DNA of 64,000 nucleotides from an uncultured SAR116 cluster alpha proteobacterium. GTDB taxonomy: Bacteria > Pseudomonadota > Alphaproteobacteria > Puniceispirillales > Puniceispirillaceae. The stretch spans positions 62,001-126,000 of the forward strand of contig CABYIQ010000001.1 in NCBI GenBank assembly GCA_902518965.1, read 5' to 3'. This document shows positions 36,943 to 46,002 of this stretch, one piece after another. The notes under the pieces are model-generated. The model saw only the letters and a list, made by a program, of their open reading frames with translations, was not told where the DNA came from and did no database searches. How positions within the stretch are numbered: position 1 is the first letter of the stretch; every line of letters starts with the position of its first letter. The position numbers were made by a program, and so were the translations under genes.

Positions 36943-39480
36943 TTAATCCAGTGTCCGGGCAACTTCTGTGATCTCAAAACATTCGATCATATCGCCTTCT
37001 TGAATATCGGAATAATTTTCAAAGGCCATACCACATTCCATGGATTCCCGGACCTCTTTTACCTCATCTTTAAAGCGACGCAGAGTCTTTAGTGACCCTT
37101 CATGGATTACCACATTATCCCGCAACAACCTGACTTTACAACCCCGTTTGATAATTCCTTCGGTTACCATACAACCAGCAACTTTGCCTGATTTTGATAC
37201 GGAGAACACTTGCCGAATTTCGGCATAGCCAATGAAATCTTCCTGGCTATCCGGACTAAGCAGGCCGCCCATAGCTGCCTTTACTTCATCGATCAGTTCA
37301 TAAATTATAGAATGATACCGTATTTCAACATTATCACGTTTTGCCAAATCACGAGCCTGCGGAATCGCACGCACATTAAAGCCAATCACCATCGCCTGTG
37401 ATGCTGCAGCAAGAGATATATCTGATTCAGACAATGCTCCTACGCCACCGATTAGAATGCGGGCTTTCACCTGTTCTGTGCCAAGCTTATCCAACGCAGT
37501 GCGAATAGCTTCTAGAGACCCATGCACATCTGTCTTGATGACAATCGGCAGTTCTTCTGCTTCGCCAGCTGCAATTGCAGTCAACATCTGTTCGACTGAT
37601 CCACGGGCGGACACAGCAGCCTGTGTGTCTCTTATCCGACGCGAACGGTATTCAGCAATTTCTCGCGCGCGGGATTCTGTTTCAACAACAGAAAATTGAT
37701 CACCAGCCATTGGCGTTCCATTGAGGCCAAGAACCTCAACAGGCTGGCCTGGCAGAGCTGATTTGAGCTGCTTGCCCTTGTCATTCAGCAAGGCACGAAC
37801 CCGACCTGATTCAGCTCCAGTTACGAAAACATCTCCAACACGCAATGTGCCGCGCTGGACAAGAACCGTGGCTACCGACCCGCGTCCACGTTCAACTTTT
37901 GCCTCAACAACTGTCCCTTCAGCGTCACGCTCAGGATTTGCTTTCAATTCAAGCAATTCAGCCTGAAGTAATATTGCTTCTTCGAGCTTATCTAGGCCTG
38001 AGCCAGTATGGGCCGATACATCTACACACAATATATCGCCACCAAAATCTTCGGTGACAATCTCATGTTGAAGAAGATCATTGCGAACCCGGCGAGGGTC
38101 TGCTTCAGTTTTATCGCATTTATTGACAGCAACAATAATTGGACAGCCTGCAGCTTTAGCATGATTTATAGCTTCAATAGTCTGTGCTTTAACTGAATCA
38201 TCAGCTGCTACAACCAGAACAACAATATCTGTTGTTACTGCCCCACGGGAGCGCATTTCAGTAAAAGCTTCATGACCAGGGGTATCAATAAACGTGAACA
38301 CATTACCAGAGCCCGTTTTGATCTGATAAGCACCAATATGCTGAGTAATCCCACCTGTTTCACCTGCTGCCACATCGGTTGCTCTAATCGCATCGAGTAG
38401 GCTGGTTTTGCCATGGTCAACATGACCCATAACAGTAACTACAGGTGGACGTGGCTTTAAATCAGCCTCATTATCTGGCGCGCCTGTTAGCCCGTCTTCG
38501 ATATCTGATTCAGACACGCGCTGCACTCTATGCCCAAATTCCATTGTCACAAGTTCAGCAGTTTCAGCATCAATTGTCTGGGTCACAGTGGCCATAATGC
38601 CCTGTTTCATTAATTCCTTGACAATGTCAGCAGCCCGTTCAGCCATTCTGTTTGCAAGCTCTTGGACTGTAATAGTGTCTGGGATTACAACATCACGAAC
38701 CTGTTTAACCTGTGGCTGGTCTTCACGCATTCGTGCTTTTTCTCGCTGCCGCCGAACAGAAGCTAACGAGCGCTGTCGTGAATCACCCTCTGATAAAGCC
38801 TGCGATATTGTAATTTTACCTGTACGGCGACGATCTATATTGCCACGTTTTTGATTTGCTGGCCGGCGCGGCGCCTCTGCTTCCTCTGACCGGCGCCGCC
38901 CACGTATTGGCGCGCCTTCACGCACCGGAAGAGGCGCTATTGAGTTGACGTCCCGTTCTGTCGAGCGGCTCCGCGCCTGACGTTGCGCATTTTCAGTTGC
39001 AAGCCGTTCCATTTCTGTTTGACGAATAGCCGCTGACTTTTTTTCAATTTCTGCAAGCTCAGCCATCTCAGCGCGGCGGCGGGATTCACGCGGATCAGTC
39101 GCTTTTTTCCCGGCTTCTTTTTCTTCATCATCATTTTCAGATTGGCTGCTTTCGGCTAGTGCTGTTTGTGTCTTTGACAGCCCCTCTTGAAGCACTTTAA
39201 TTCTATTGGCGCGTTCTGCTGCTGTTAGGCGGTCATCCATTTGCGCCGACGTTTCAACCGTCCCTTCTTTAGGTACAAGTGTCTCTGGCTGCGTAGGGGG
39301 AGAAGTCCGCAAAGCTGGGTTCAGAACACGTTTGCGTCTGACTTCAACCTGCACGTTTTTGCCGCGACTTGCAGACACGCCGCTCCTCAGCGTCGTCTGA
39401 TCAAGCCCACTACCACCAAGTGTGAGTTTGCCACTTCCTGACAAGCTCAATTTTTTCGGCTTACTATTTTTTTCGCTCAT
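36943..39480 (-). CDS. infB: Translation initiation factor IF-2
   Basis: An 845-residue initiation GTPase. The N-terminal about 270 residues are charged and low in complexity (Arg/Glu-rich runs), usual for the IF-2 N-domain. The G domain follows with [26 protein letters not shown] and NKCD. Domain II and the C-terminal fMet-tRNA-binding domain ([20 protein letters not shown] region) complete it. It sits between ylxR and rbfA; a possible internal promoter lies upstream. Confidence 0.97.
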
Positions 39481-39606: not shown

Positions 39607-40242
39607 CTATCTTTTGTCATTAGCTTTTGCTACTCCTCGCCAACGCCGTAATTCTGTTCTCAACAGCGTCTCTAGCTGCCGCTCCGCTGATGAAGCTGAT
39701 CGGAACACCCCGGCATAAGCAACAGATGTGCTTCCTGAAACCTGGCCAAGCCAAACAGAGGGAACACCCTTTTCTATCCACTCTGGCTGACAGCCACTGA
39801 TCAGCTTCTGTGTCTCGCGTGGACTGGCATCATCACCAACCAACAAGCCGGACAAAAGAGCTTGGCTGCGCAGCTTTCCACCGCCGGCAACCAACACCCC
39901 AACTTTCCGCATCATAGACAAACGCGCAATCAACTGGTCGGCTAAACGGCGGTCCAAATTATCAAGAAAATTATCACTAATTCGGACAGTCCGCTTAAGA
40001 TGTCTGCTGAAATGGTTCCCTGATATGGCCTGGTCTATGGTTTCGCGCACTGCACTGACCCAGACTCCGCGGCCACCAAGCTTATTGCCTGTATCAGCGA
40101 CTAGCTCGCCGTCCGGCGAGGCAACAAAACGAATCAAAACAGCCTTGTCAGCGATCTCACCTGTAATGATGCATTTGCGCTGCGGCCTGGAAAGCTTGAT
40201 GTTAGCCTGTTCCAATTCTGGAGATGTATATGGAGATGACAT
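39607..40242 (-). CDS. YlxR (DUF448) RNA-binding protein with an L7Ae-like C-terminal domain
   Basis: A 211-residue protein of the nusA-infB operon. The N-terminal YlxR domain has RKCIITGEIADKAVLIRFV, LGGRGVWV and conserved basic positions. The C-terminal half (RKVGVLVAGGGKLRSQALLSGLLVGDDAS) looks like the L7Ae/L30e-like domain fused to YlxR in alphaproteobacteria. The exact role is poorly known; YlxR proteins have been linked to rRNA or RNase P function and to transcription. It starts 29 bp after nusA. Confidence 0.88.
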   Translation of the reverse strand: MSSPYTSPELEQANIKLSRPQRKCIITGEIADKAVLIRFVASPDGELVADTGNKLGGRGVWVSAVRETIDQAISGNHFSRHLKRTVRISDNFLDNLDRRLADQLIARLSMMRKVGVLVAGGGKLRSQALLSGLLVGDDASPRETQKLISGCQPEWIEKGVPSVWLGQVSGSTSVAYAGVFRSASSAERQLETLLRTELRRWRGVAKANDKR

Positions 40243-40271
40243 ATGTCCGTCCTCCCTGAACCTCTCATCTC

Positions 40272-41837
40272 TCAGCTATCCGCAGTTTCAGCAGCTTCAG
40301 CTGCTGCTGTTTCAACGACCGAATTATCTTCAGTCTGCTCATCTGCAAACCAATGTGCCCGGGCAGCCATGATAATATCACCAGCGACTGTTTCATCATC
40401 AATGCCATGCTCACTGAGAAGTCCAACCAGCTCCTCACTGTCTAGTTCAGCCAAATCATCAAGGCATAAGATTTTATTTTCAGCTAAGGTCAGAATCATG
40501 CTACGGGACAAATAATCAACTTCTTTCAGATCATCCTTAACCTTTAGCTCAACCAAAGCAGACGTTATTCGGCTAGTTTCCGCCTCAACAAACTCTGTTG
40601 CGCGGCTTTGAAGTTCAGTAGCGATATCCTCATCAAAGCCTTGTATGAGCGCAAGATCACTTACAGGTGTCAATGCAATATCGTCGACAGACACAAATCC
40701 TTCCGCTACTAGTAGATGGGCTATCACATCATCAATGTTCAACGCTTCAATAAAGCGCGTGGAGCGTGTCTTAAATTCTTCCTGCCTACGTTCTGATTCT
40801 TCGGCTTCAGACAAGATATCGATATACCAACCGGTAAGCTGGGAGGCCAGGCGCACGTTCTGTCCACGCCGTCCAATAGCAAGGCTGAGCTGGTCATCAG
40901 GCACAACCACCTCAACACGCCCAGCAACCTCATCAACCACGACCTTCGCTACCTCAGCTGGAGCTAGCGCGTTTACAATAAAGGTCACCGGGTCTTCCGA
41001 GAATGGAATAATTTCAATTTTTTCACCCTGCAACTCACTGACCACAGCTTGGACACGGCTACCTCTTAAGCCAACACAAGCGCCAACTGGATCAATTGAT
41101 GTGTCACGTGATAAAACAGAAATTTTTGCGCGGCTTCCAGGCTCTCTAGCAACAGCCTTAATCTCTATTATGCCATCATAGATTTCCGGCACTTCCTGCG
41201 TGAACAGCTTAGCCATAAATTCATTGGCACCGCGGGACAAGAAAATCTGGGGACCACGCACCTCCTCGCGTACATCAACGATATAAGCTCGAACGCGATC
41301 ACCTTGATTGAGATTTTCGCGTGGAATCATCTCTTCACGCCGGATTACGCCTTCAGCACGGCCAAGATCGACGGTAATTGAATAACTTTCAGCGCGTTTG
41401 ACGGTGCCCAAAACCACCTCACCAACACGGTCCTTATATTCCTGATATTGGCGCGCACGCTCAGCTTCGCGAACTTTTTGAGAAATAACCTGCTTTGCTG
41501 TCTGCGCGGCAATCCGGCCAAATTCAATAGGAGGCAGTGGCTGGCGGAGAAAATCGCCAATGGTAAGACCGTGCTTTTCGCCTTCAGCCCCACTCATTTG
41601 GGTGGAATCATCTTCCACCTCATCAACAACTTCCGTCCACCGTTCGAGCTGTATTGACCCTGTTTTACGGTCAATCATTGCGCGGATATCTCGATCGTTA
41701 CCATATTTGGACCTTCCTGCCTTCTGAATAGCCTCTTCCATCGCCATGATGACCTCTTCACGCTCAATTGATTTTTCACGCGCAACGACATCCGCAATCT
41801 GCATCAATTCAAGTCCGGGAATTGAAGATGTGTCCAT
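40272..41837 (-). CDS. nusA: Transcription termination/antitermination factor NusA
   Basis: A 521-residue RNA polymerase-binding factor. The N-terminal domain is followed by S1 (GEVVLGTVKRAESYSITVDLG), KH1 (GSRAKISVLSRDTSIDPVGACVG) and KH2 (LAIGRRGQNVRLASQLTGW), then acidic C-terminal repeats rich in Asp and Glu. NusA modulates pausing and intrinsic termination, which is relevant because a promoter-terminator leader lies upstream of this operon. It is 37 bp downstream of rimP. Confidence 0.97.
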   Translation of the reverse strand: MDTSSIPGLELMQIADVVAREKSIEREEVIMAMEEAIQKAGRSKYGNDRDIRAMIDRKTGSIQLERWTEVVDEVEDDSTQMSGAEGEKHGLTIGDFLRQPLPPIEFGRIAAQTAKQVISQKVREAERARQYQEYKDRVGEVVLGTVKRAESYSITVDLGRAEGVIRREEMIPRENLNQGDRVRAYIVDVREEVRGPQIFLSRGANEFMAKLFTQEVPEIYDGIIEIKAVAREPGSRAKISVLSRDTSIDPVGACVGLRGSRVQAVVSELQGEKIEIIPFSEDPVTFIVNALAPAEVAKVVVDEVAGRVEVVVPDDQLSLAIGRRGQNVRLASQLTGWYIDILSEAEESERRQEEFKTRSTRFIEALNIDDVIAHLLVAEGFVSVDDIALTPVSDLALIQGFDEDIATELQSRATEFVEAETSRITSALVELKVKDDLKEVDYLSRSMILTLAENKILCLDDLAELDSEELVGLLSEHGIDDETVAGDIIMAARAHWFADEQTEDNSVVETAAAEAAETADS

Positions 41838-41874
41838 AAGTTCCTGCCTCTTCTTTTAGCTTAAGATCAATATA

Positions 41875-42414
41875 CTAGTCAGTTTGTCTGAGTGAATTTT
41901 GTTTGCCTGGCTTGATGCGCCGGGCTTGTTGTTTTAACTTCGAATAATATTCCGTCGGGTCCAACTTTGCGGAATCAATATCCGAAAATGCGAAACTTAT
42001 CCGGCCTGTTCGTGTTTCAATTGTGATGTTGCCTTTCCGATCAATGCCAGTAAGGCGCCCCTTAAACCGCTTCTGCCCAGCCTGCATTTGTAGCAATGTA
42101 ACCTTCACCTGTTCGCCTGCGAAACGCGTGAAGTCAGTTTCACGTGTAAGGGGTCGGTCAATCCCTGGTGAGCTAATTTCCAGCATATAAGCCTGGTCAA
42201 TAGGGTCTTCCACATCCAGAACAGCAGCTAAATGACGACTGATTGTTTCACAATCCTCAACAGTCATATCTCTGTCTTCACAAGGCTCTGCCATAATCTG
42301 CAACGCAGCCCGGCCGGCCTGTGAACCACCACCAGAAAATTGAATACGCACGCAATCGAAGCCCAGACTAGACAGAGCAGGCGTGATCATTTTTTCAAAT
42401 TTCTGTACACTCAT
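41875..42414 (-). CDS. rimP: Ribosome maturation factor RimP
   Basis: A 179-residue 30S maturation factor. SLGFDCVRIQFSGGGSQAGRAALQIM and YMLEISSPGIDRPLTRETDFTRFAG are the RimP signatures, and the C-terminal SH3-like domain ends in the basic YYSKLKQQARRIKPGKQ. First gene of the rimP-nusA-ylxR-infB-rbfA-truB-rpsO-pnp cluster. Its 139-bp leader holds a strong promoter and a terminator hairpin. Confidence 0.95.
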   Translation of the reverse strand: MSVQKFEKMITPALSSLGFDCVRIQFSGGGSQAGRAALQIMAEPCEDRDMTVEDCETISRHLAAVLDVEDPIDQAYMLEISSPGIDRPLTRETDFTRFAGEQVKVTLLQMQAGQKRFKGRLTGIDRKGNITIETRTGRISFAFSDIDSAKLDPTEYYSKLKQQARRIKPGKQNSLRQTD

Positions 42415-42455
42415 TCTCAGACTATATGTTGTTCATGTTCATACTAAAAAATTGC

Positions 42456-42483
42456 AATAAAAAAGGCGGGCTTTTAGCCCACC
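42456..42483 (-). terminator. Intrinsic terminator/attenuator in the trmB-rimP gap
   Basis: On the minus strand GGTGGGC-5nt-GCCCGCC (plus 42465-42483, one G-U pair) is followed by six T (plus 42459-42464), a textbook rho-independent terminator; a second six-T run follows about seven bases on. It lies 70 bp after the trmB stop but also about 20 nt downstream of the predicted start of the rimP promoter, so it may act on both transcripts. Confidence 0.85.
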
Positions 42484-42510
42484 GGATTTTCACGTCTGGT
42501 TTTCTTAACA

Positions 42511-42539
42511 ATTATAGACATAACATAGGAAAAATGCAA
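42511..42539 (-). promoter_or_regulatory. Strong sigma-70-like promoter for the rimP-nusA-infB operon
   Basis: On the minus strand TTGCAT (plus 42534-42539) is followed after exactly 17 bp by a perfect TATAAT (plus 42511-42516), predicting a transcription start near 42504. It is the best promoter match I saw in the window and it lies upstream of the terminator at 42456-42483. Confidence 0.7.
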
Positions 42540-42553
42540 GCGAGAGTTGCCAG

Positions 42554-43246
42554 CTAGTTGCGTTTGAAGTCAAACCAGCTGGATGCACGTCCTTCATGTT
42601 CACCCTTCACCATGTATCGTGACTGTGGCCAGTTAGAAGGACGTAAACGCCAATCCTTAGCTGATTGAGCCGTCCATCTGAATGCGGAATTACGTAACAC
42701 CTCAGCCAGCAACCAAGATTTTGCAACAGGGTGATCGCTGGCAAAACGCAAACTGCCCCCCGGTTTAAGACAGAATGCCAGCTTGTCCAGCATGGAGGGG
42801 CTGAAAATCCGCCTTTTAGCATGTCGGGTCTTTGGCCAAGGATCAGGAAACATCACATATACAGATGTAAATGATGATTCTGGCAAGTTATCCAGCATCA
42901 GACGAACATCATCAGGCCAAATTCTAATATTCTTAAGATTTTGTTCGTCAATATGGCGCAGCAGACTGACAATGCCATTAATGAAAGGTTCTGCGCCAAT
43001 AAAGGCTGTATCTGGTCTAGCTTTGGCAAGAGCCGCCAGATGCTCGCCACCCCCAAATCCAATTTCAAGCGATAAGGAGGCACTTGGATCCACAGGGAAA
43101 CATGCTAATAAACTATCCGTTGTGTGCGGACCGGCAGGCAGAACAAATTCTGGTAACAATTTATCTAACCTTTTTTGCATGGCTGCGCTGAGTGGCCGGC
43201 CTTTACGCCGGCCGAAAAAACGGGGGGGCTGTTTTATGTCCTTCAC
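42554..43246 (-). CDS. trmB: tRNA (guanine-N7-)-methyltransferase
   Basis: A 230-residue SAM enzyme for m7G46 of tRNA. FFGRRKGRPLSAAMQKRLDKL is the N-terminal motif, LEIGFGGGEHLAALAKARP the SAM-binding loop, and VMFPDPWPKTRHAKRRI the TrmB catalytic signature. The start codon is GTG at 43246, with AGAGAT upstream. Last gene of the miaB-to-trmB run, closed by the terminator 70 bp downstream. Confidence 0.96.
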   Translation of the reverse strand: MKDIKQPPRFFGRRKGRPLSAAMQKRLDKLLPEFVLPAGPHTTDSLLACFPVDPSASLSLEIGFGGGEHLAALAKARPDTAFIGAEPFINGIVSLLRHIDEQNLKNIRIWPDDVRLMLDNLPESSFTSVYVMFPDPWPKTRHAKRRIFSPSMLDKLAFCLKPGGSLRFASDHPVAKSWLLAEVLRNSAFRWTAQSAKDWRLRPSNWPQSRYMVKGEHEGRASSWFDFKRN

Positions 43247-43288
43247 AGCATATCTCTCATGTTGAAGACTTTGATATTTTTGTTCGAA

Positions 43289-44473
43289 TCACCCAATTGC
43301 CGCCAGCAGATTGTCAATTAGATCTCGAGCCTCCCAGCTGAATGACCCTGGACCAGCTTCACCTGCGATGCGGCCAAAATGGCCATAAGCGGAACTTGGC
43401 ACATAGATTGGCTTGTTTAGACCGAGATGTTCGCGGATGCTGCGCGGGGTCAAGCCCATAACCTCACCTTTTGTAAGGATATTTGCCAGTATAGAGTCAT
43501 CCATCCGGCCTGTACCATATGTGTTTACATAAACTGAAACAGGGGTCGCGACACCGATCGCATAGGCAATCTGTATCGTACATTTTTCAGCCAATTCGGC
43601 TGCAACTATATTTTTTGCAAGATACCGGGCAGCATAAGCAGCTGACCTATCAACCTTTGTTGGGTCTTTACCTGAAAAGGCACCACCACCATGCGGGGCT
43701 GCACCGCCATAGGTGTCGACAATAATCTTTCGGCCAGTCAATCCAGCGTCACCATCTGGCCCACCAATTTCAAATCGGCCTGTTGGGTTAATCAGAAAAT
43801 CATCTTCACCAACCATCCATCCCTCTGGCAGAATGTCCGCTACCACCGGGGTGATCAGCTTTCGTATGTCGTTAACAGATGCCCCAGATGCATGCTGGGT
43901 AGAAATAACCAATTTATCAACGCCTAGGACCGCACCACTATCATCATAGCGCAAAGTCACCTGTGACTTGGAATCAGGGCCCAAAATACTATCTTTGTTT
44001 GCCTTGCGAACTGAAGCCAGCTTTTTTAAGATCTGATGGGAATAATGGATCGGTGCAGGCATCAGTTCATCTGTTTCGCGGCACGCATAGCCAAACATCA
44101 GGCCCTGATCACCAGCTCCTTCATCCTTGCCTGAGTTGGCATCAACACCCTGTGCAATATGCGCAGACTGTTCATGTAAATAATTCTGAAATTCAAAATC
44201 AGCGTGATGGAATTTTTCCTGCTCGTACCCAATATCTTTAATAGCCGCTCGCACGCAACTTTCAATCTCTGCCATGATCCTATCAAGATTATCTGCAGAC
44301 GCTCTAACCTCACCCGCAAGAATTATCCGGTTAGTTGTAGCCATGGTCTCACATGCAACTCGAGCTTCAGGCTCATACGATAGGAACAAATCCAAAACCG
44401 TATCAGAAACCCTATCACAAACCTTGTCCGGGTGGCCTTCTGAAACTGATTCCGAAGTGAATAAATATGACAT
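43289..44473 (-). CDS. metK: S-adenosylmethionine synthetase
   Basis: A 394-residue enzyme making SAM from methionine and [21 protein letters not shown], the [12 protein letters not shown] hexapeptide-like motif, and the P-loop-like [19 protein letters not shown] are all intact. The lnt-metK gap is only 35 bp and shows no SAM-responsive riboswitch. It is usual in this position next to trmB. Confidence 0.97.
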
Positions 44474-44508
44474 TACTCTTCCTTACATCATGCACATGTA
44501 TTGTTAGT

Positions 44509-46002
44509 TTATCCGTTCTTATTGCGTCTTTGGTGAGAAAATTCAAGCCACAATGACATAAGCAAATAAACAAGCAGAAGCAATAGAGGGGCAACCATGC
44601 GCAGTTGCGTATAAACTGTTCCCTCTAGAGCTGGAGGCACGGGCACATCAATCACAGCAGCAGCGCCCAATTCAGAGCGCGCAAGCACACGCCCGTAAGC
44701 ATCAATGGCCCCTGAAATCCCGGTATTGGCAACCCTGAAAACAGGCAATCCTTCTTCAATAGCCCGCATGCGTGCTTGTGCAAAATGCTGATGTGGCCCT
44801 GCAGTTTGGCCAAACCAGGCATCATTACTCAAGGTCAACAACACGTCGGGCCGAAAGTTATCTGCTGCAATGAAGTCAGGAAATATTATCTCATAGCAGA
44901 TCAGAACCCTAAAACTGCCAATATCAGACACAATTACCGGTTGTGCAGCCTGTCCCTGTTTAATATCAACTGACCCGGCTATGACATCGACAAAAGGTAT
45001 ACCACGGAAAGGCACATATTCACCAAACGGAACCAGATGCTGTTTATCATAAATTTGCTGCAGTTGACCACTACGGTCAAAAAACAAGACAGAATTAAAT
45101 AGATTTCCTGCCTCATCACGGCGCAAGATTCCAGTTGCCATCATACCAGACGGACCACTGATAAGTTTTGCCATATTTTTAACCAGCTCTGGCTCATGTG
45201 GCCAAACACTCGCCAGAGCTGCTTCTGGCAACACCGTCAGATTTGAAGAATTTGGTTCTTGCCGCGCCAATGCAATCATCTTATCAAGGTGGGCTCCACG
45301 TTGGTCAAAGTCCCATTTATCTTGCTGGGAAATGTTCGGCTGGATCAGCCTAACAATTGGAGCCACCTCATCCATGTCTAGCGCTGGTGGAAATGTGCGC
45401 ACGCGATCTGCTGACAGTATAAGACAGAAAAAAAATGGCGTTAAGGAAGAACAAAACAGACTAAATCGGCGCTGCATTATAAGCGAGGGAGCCACAATCA
45501 TTGACAACACCAGAAAATTCAGACCATTCTGGCCGACAAAAGATGCCCCCTGCGCCAATATCGGCGAGCCCAAAAATGCATGTGCTGTGACATTCCAAGG
45601 AAAACCTGTCAGCATAACCGAACGCAAATAATCAGCACATCCAAGACAGATGATGAACCCAATTAACCGTGCAGATGGGCTTGAAAAAACCCTAAAGGCC
45701 AAAGCTGCTCCTGCTGCCCAGAATAAAGCCAGAAACAATGGAAACAGCAAACACACAAAAGGCAGCAGAAGCAGTTGCAGCCCCCCATCAACAAATAATG
45801 ATGAACCAATCCAATATAAAGACGCCATAAACCAACCCAAGGAGGACAGTCCAACATATAATGCGGCCTGCCGAGCGGTAAGAGCATTTACAGCAAAATA
45901 AAAAACAGGCGAGAAGAAAAATATAGCTGGCACAATTTCCACGGGGGGCAGAGCCAGACTTGCAACCATACCAGCACATAGGAAAAATATGTATTTAGGC
46001 AT
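44509..46002 (-). CDS. lnt: Apolipoprotein N-acyltransferase
   Basis: About 497 residues. Several hydrophobic segments in the first about 200 residues are followed by a periplasmic nitrilase-like domain. The catalytic triad is present: Glu in VLPEAALAS, Lys in YDKQHLVPFGEYVPF and Cys in VLICYEIIFPD. A C-terminal membrane helix closes it. It N-acylates outer-membrane lipoproteins. The ATG at 46002 overlaps the corC stop by 8 bp; an ATG at 46038 would lengthen the overlap. Confidence 0.95.
   Translation of the reverse strand: MPKYIFFLCAGMVASLALPPVEIVPAIFFFSPVFYFAVNALTARQAALYVGLSSLGWFMASLYWIGSSLFVDGGLQLLLLPFVCLLFPLFLALFWAAGAALAFRVFSSPSARLIGFIICLGCADYLRSVMLTGFPWNVTAHAFLGSPILAQGASFVGQNGLNFLVLSMIVAPSLIMQRRFSLFCSSLTPFFFCLILSADRVRTFPPALDMDEVAPIVRLIQPNISQQDKWDFDQRGAHLDKMIALARQEPNSSNLTVLPEAALASVWPHEPELVKNMAKLISGPSGMMATGILRRDEAGNLFNSVLFFDRSGQLQQIYDKQHLVPFGEYVPFRGIPFVDVIAGSVDIKQGQAAQPVIVSDIGSFRVLICYEIIFPDFIAADNFRPDVLLTLSNDAWFGQTAGPHQHFAQARMRAIEEGLPVFRVANTGISGAIDAYGRVLARSELGAAAVIDVPVPPALEGTVYTQLRMVAPLLLLLVYLLMSLWLEFSHQRRNKNG

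Follow-up and report, generated by a model that had tools for sequence, protein, structure and literature searches.

The 64,000-nt stretch of DNA analyzed here (the window), whose nearest records were SAR116 cluster alphaproteobacteria, carries an intrinsic terminator between a promoter and the start of rimP, which raises the question of whether this hairpin ends the transcripts of the upstream gene trmB or attenuates the operon that follows. The gene order on the minus strand was metK-trmB-rimP-nusA-ylxR-infB. The rimP gene (41875..42414) matched the NCBIfam RimP models under the curated cut-offs (best E 3e-46) as well as both RimP Pfam domain models, nusA (40272..41837) matched TIGR01953 (E 4e-122), the ylxR/rnpM-like gene for an RNA-binding protein (39607..40242) matched NF006622 and NF047356 under the cut-off, and infB, encoding IF-2 (36943..39480), matched TIGR00487 (E 4e-238). 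The upstream neighbor trmB (42554..43246, with its stop at 42554) matched TIGR00091 over the cut-off, and protein family models showed that MetK is encoded upstream of TrmB. All of these genes lie on the minus strand, as do the leader features below.

A promoter comprising a -35 element TTGCAT (42534..42539, within CTTGCA) and a -10 element TATAAT (42511..42516), separated by a 17-nt spacer, predicts a transcription start near 42504. The first-pass annotation had described this promoter as near-consensus. The promoter is present and its pattern, CTTG(C/A)..TAT at the same spacing, is conserved among relatives; however, only 3 of the 6 bases of the -35 element agree with the E. coli hexamer, and for that reason a promoter scan missed the promoter. 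The stem of an intrinsic terminator, written GGTGGGC..GCCCGCC, starts 20 nt after the predicted start. The hairpin (GGTGGGCTAAAAGCCCGCC, 42465..42483), identified by sequence, terminator scan, folding, and the covariance model R1, has arms GGTGGGCT-AAA-AGCCCGCC (42483-42465) that form 8 pairs around the loop AAA (-13.4 kcal/mol), and it is followed by a U6 tract (42459..42464), the T tract being near-invariant in the alignment. It ranked first of 9 in a terminator scan of 40000-46000, and a search of the whole genome with R1 gave one good match, which was the window hairpin (E 1e-8; next 7.4). Sequence, fold, and scan rank thus bore out the proposal of a strong GC hairpin with U6 about 20 nt past the predicted start. 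The hairpin precedes the rimP ATG (42414) as had been claimed, at a distance of 44 nt from the U6 tract rather than 42 nt. The promoter and terminator positions together predict an attenuated leader RNA of about 46 nt (42459..42504), and the distance from the -10 element to the stem is 27 nt in the window and 23-33 nt in relatives. No tRNA gene was found in the leader. A known small RNA family in the leader was ruled out by an Rfam search, in which nothing in the window reached the gathering score and the matches at 42300-42700 were only sub-threshold and at chance level.

The trmB-rimP gaps of 110 SAR116 loci were reduced to 78 distinct gaps. A hairpin with a U tract was found in 78/78 of them compared with 49/390 dinucleotide shuffles, and a promoter (CTTG-18 to 22 nt-TAT) lay 5' of the hairpin in 43/59 window-type loci compared with 61/1180 shuffles. 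The shuffle controls used here preserve dinucleotides, not phylogeny, and clustering or mostly one locus per family was used where possible. The promoter-then-hairpin order, whose conservation had been suggested as a check, is therefore kept in relatives. Locus L017, whose leader had been shortened by a misassigned rimP start, was omitted from later tests. A seeming insert within rimP in L010 and L032 proved to be a run of N.

A diverged SAR116 family (the L072-L102 gaps) showed another form of the same order. A promoter was detected 5' of the hairpin in 22/23 loci using a looser pattern (63/460 shuffles), and the -10 box was 1-10 nt from the stem, so that transcription would start right at the base of the hairpin. 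In this family the terminator core GAGTC..GACTC replaces GGGC..GCCC, which argues that a sequence-specific GGGC contact is not obligatory. These loci also bear on the idea that what is transcribed from promoter to terminator is an independent small RNA, about 46 nt long and acting in trans. A short RNA is indeed enclosed by the two elements, and 5'UTR-derived small RNAs exist; however, the stretch from start to stem was poorly conserved in the alignment even within SAR116, and in the family that starts at the stem base there would be almost no RNA besides the terminator, which makes a trans-acting product extremely unlikely.

In the class-wide search, RimP was found in 259/289 genomes, and 88 rimP loci, mostly from different families, were taken as the class set. 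A GGG/CCC terminator preceded rimP in 61/88 loci compared with 12/440 shuffles, and any terminator in 74/88 compared with 115/440, the 74/88 rising to 75/88 when a slightly longer stretch was used; no terminator was present in 14/88. Among the 71 class loci with a usable terminator core, 54 had a promoter 5' of it, at 23-81 nt upstream, compared with 49/1420 shuffles. These counts indicate that the element is widespread in the class rather than a peculiarity of the window genome. As a separate observation made by eye, CCCATA or CCATA recurs near the predicted start in the leaders of L118, L133, L135, L140, L179, L189, and L195; this motif, which SAR116 lacks, could form pairs with UGGG in the terminator stem.

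The first-pass annotation had offered two options, a displaced trmB terminator or an attenuator. If the hairpin were the 3' terminator of metK-trmB, placed past the rimP promoter, rimP would be driven by a promoter lying 3' of the hairpin. Such an arrangement would agree with trmB being the upstream neighbor in 78/78 SAR116 gaps, with an intergenic terminator being ordinary, with the hairpin also stopping trmB readthrough, and with a TATAGT at about 42425-42420, just 5' of the rimP ATG, which the two closest relatives share with the window. However, among 29 class loci in which no upstream trmB was detected, 19 kept the hairpin (the 29 are a maximum, because trmB may be diverged, and so missed, or the contig truncated in some of these loci), and hence it is very probably not trmB's own terminator; trmB is not required for the element. 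The stretch from the stem end to the rimP start was 18-140 nt in SAR116 relatives and less than about 48 nt in half of the loci, so a full promoter past the hairpin does not fit there, and the gap between hairpin and gene was often under 30 nt. Since there is little or no room for a downstream promoter in that half of the loci, their operon transcripts must cross the terminator, whether they come from the leader promoter or from trmB. The upstream promoter at fixed spacing is, moreover, conserved. Conserved order, retention without trmB, and short gaps strongly favor the attenuator, and a displaced trmB terminator is very unlikely. The arrangement of the locus and its relatives indicates that the element is very probably a promoter-proximal transcription attenuator of the rimP-nusA-ylxR-infB operon.

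Which gene the attenuator serves, rimP or nusA, had been left open when elements of this type were named the rimP-leader. Genomes without rimP are natural deletions that separate the two genes. In five SAR116 loci trmB was directly followed by nusA, and no RimP_N domain was found in those genomes. Promoter and hairpin were kept before nusA in the rimP-less SAR116 loci L099 and L089, and both rimP and hairpin were gone in L107, L109, and L110; nusA of L107 is probably no longer attenuated. A wider set of 18 nusA loci was drawn from genomes without a RimP_N match, several of them complete or near complete, and RimP_C was also without a match in the 11 rimP-less genomes checked. Absence of rimP was judged by domain models with working positive controls, which a very diverged RimP could escape. 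No gene lay between hairpin and nusA in the rimP-less loci. A strict GGG/CCC terminator was present within 200 nt before nusA in 6/18 of these loci (3/180 shuffles) and any terminator in 10/18 (24/180 shuffles), about half of the 18 having no convincing hairpin. In the control loci with rimP present, a strict GGG/CCC terminator stood directly before nusA in 0/58.

On the NusA tree the rimP-less rows require 12 changes, at least 6 of them forced by well supported branches. Losses that kept the hairpin fell into at least 2 separate lineages, namely SAR116 and f87/f124/f29 (the latter grouped at 85% only), and probably also into f61, f116, and f126. Since the hairpin often stays before nusA after the loss of rimP, the terminator, as judged from genome comparison, is one that tracks nusA rather than rimP; this is evidence on evolution, not a measure of regulation, and it points to nusA as the gene served. 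Several side observations concern these loci. In L201-L219, L099, and L107, trmB or metK adjoins nusA, and rimP has seemingly been lost several times in Alphaproteobacteria. The SAR116 subclade L107, L109, L110, L205, and L207 has lost both rimP and the promoter-proximal hairpin before nusA, and ylxR between nusA and infB is also missing in L107. The rimP-less genomes include the complete genomes G183, G274, and G125.

How the attenuator would work can be proposed from its anatomy. RNA polymerase would start near 42504 and meet the GGTGGGC..GCCCGCC-U6 terminator about 45 nt on, where a large fraction of polymerases should terminate, while the remainder would continue into rimP, nusA, and infB. 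NusA would be the likeliest controller: at a high level it would strengthen termination and reduce its own synthesis, and at a low level more polymerase would pass. This feedback is plausible, and the retention of the hairpin at nusA after rimP loss supports it. Given an attenuator, the genomic evidence suggests NusA as its probable main effector, and the two parts taken together, attenuation with NusA as the most likely effector, form a reading that we consider likely.

A different account keeps the attenuator in the same position and assigns its output to constant partial readthrough or to control by something other than NusA, such as RimP, IF-2, NusG, Rho, or growth-rate effects. Neither an antiterminator nor a sensor domain was seen in the leader, apart from a weak helix P1 that touches the terminator base (supported at the clade level and missed by RNAalifold). 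With no antiterminator visible, regulation is left to a protein or to partial readthrough at a constant level. This account is also helped by the change of the core to GAGTC and by the contribution of NusG and Rho to intrinsic termination in B. subtilis (PMC9931155). Against it, NusA is reported to repress its own operon in E. coli (PMC6511841, and references in PMC2965389) and, in B. subtilis, to stimulate termination in the leader (Mondal et al. 2016, as cited in PMC12288461). RimP feedback in particular is disfavored because the hairpin survives rimP loss. Constant readthrough or another factor is rather unlikely on balance.

The candidate P1 helix (ACCAGA/UCCGGU with one A.C mismatch, 42481..42500, minus strand) came from a clade-level helix scan. 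In the window the terminator stem begins with GGU, three bases that also belong to the 3' arm of P1. RNAalifold on 39 leaders gave the terminator stem only and did not find P1; P1 was therefore assessed in a helix scan of its own, controlled by shuffles and by a shifted anchor. The enrichment in SAR116 was z 6.9 for 52 distinct leaders, 5.1 at 75% clustering, and 3.6 at 60% identity, compared with z -1.1 for an identical scan placed 9 nt upstream. The pairs covary (CUGUC/GACGG, CUAUC/GAUGG, UUAUC/GAUGA, and CGUUU/GAGCG). P1 is weak in the window (-1.5 kcal/mol), its region had a weak folding z-score in SAR116 (-0.38) and a modest one across the class (-0.66 compared with -0.04 for the control), and the diverged SAR116 family has no room for it. 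P1 may be regarded as a lead at the level of the clade only. A more speculative proposal is that the SAR116 leader is a minimal two-state switch, in which P1 would capture the bases that open the terminator stem, and the choice between P1 and the full terminator would fall to NusA or some other factor within the first 50 nt, a nusA-specific feedback device persisting after rimP loss; this is unlikely. On the plus strand, 42481-42500 can form a 7-pair hairpin followed by TTTC, a terminator-like structure that faces the opposite direction and overlaps P1.

Among known systems, the closest is the rimP-leader, which was named by Naville and Gautheret (2010, PMC2965389) and presented there as the most widespread of the predicted attenuators. 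It was described as a GGGc..gCCC stem with a U tract, 4-130 nt before rimP and with no visible antiterminator, and NusA was proposed in 2010 as its favored effector (PMC2965389). The window element lies 5' of the rimP-nusA-infB operon, its stem GGTGGGC..GCCCGCC (42483-42465) contains the GGGc(...)gCCC core, U6 (42464-42459) comes right after the stem, and the terminator is 44 nt from the gene. With each sequence feature of the description present, the element, as classified by sequence, is the alphaproteobacterial form of the rimP-leader. Both are predicted premature terminators before the same operon for which NusA has been proposed, so the NusA feedback suggested by the first-pass annotation is sound but had already been published for this type of element. 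The published figure names Firmicutes and Gammaproteobacteria (PMC2965389), whereas the present survey covers the class Alphaproteobacteria, where one SAR116 family has GAGTC..GACTC in place of the GGGC core.

The B. subtilis nusA leader is similar in that an intrinsic terminator in the 5' leader of a NusA operon controls entry into the gene; nusA is reportedly controlled there through termination that NusA stimulates (Mondal et al. 2016, as cited in PMC12288461). According to that citation, NusA dependence was measured for the B. subtilis leader, whereas the SAR116 leader is described here from sequence. The B. subtilis leader is about 180 nt long (PMC2965389), compared with about 90 nt in the window including the gap to rimP. 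NusA stimulates most B. subtilis terminators (PMC12288461), and sensitivity to NusA alone would therefore not be specific. In E. coli, the terminators t1 and t2 of metY-rimP-nusA-infB likewise lie between the operon promoters and rimP (PMC6511841); however, that leader contains a tRNA gene, several promoters, and RNase III sites, whereas the window leader lacks a tRNA and has a single recognizable promoter and a single terminator. NusA acts as a general transcription factor, and distant bacteria appear to set its supply by means of a terminator in the leader that precedes its own gene. Beyond the rimP-leader description, the alphaproteobacterial element shows a narrow promoter spacing, a terminator that nusA retains once rimP is lost, and a weak P1, and the near-constant distance between promoter and terminator offers a very short system for in vitro tests. 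To the known systems the present analysis adds a survey of the class Alphaproteobacteria that includes promoter spacing, a test based on the loss of rimP, and P1 as a lead.
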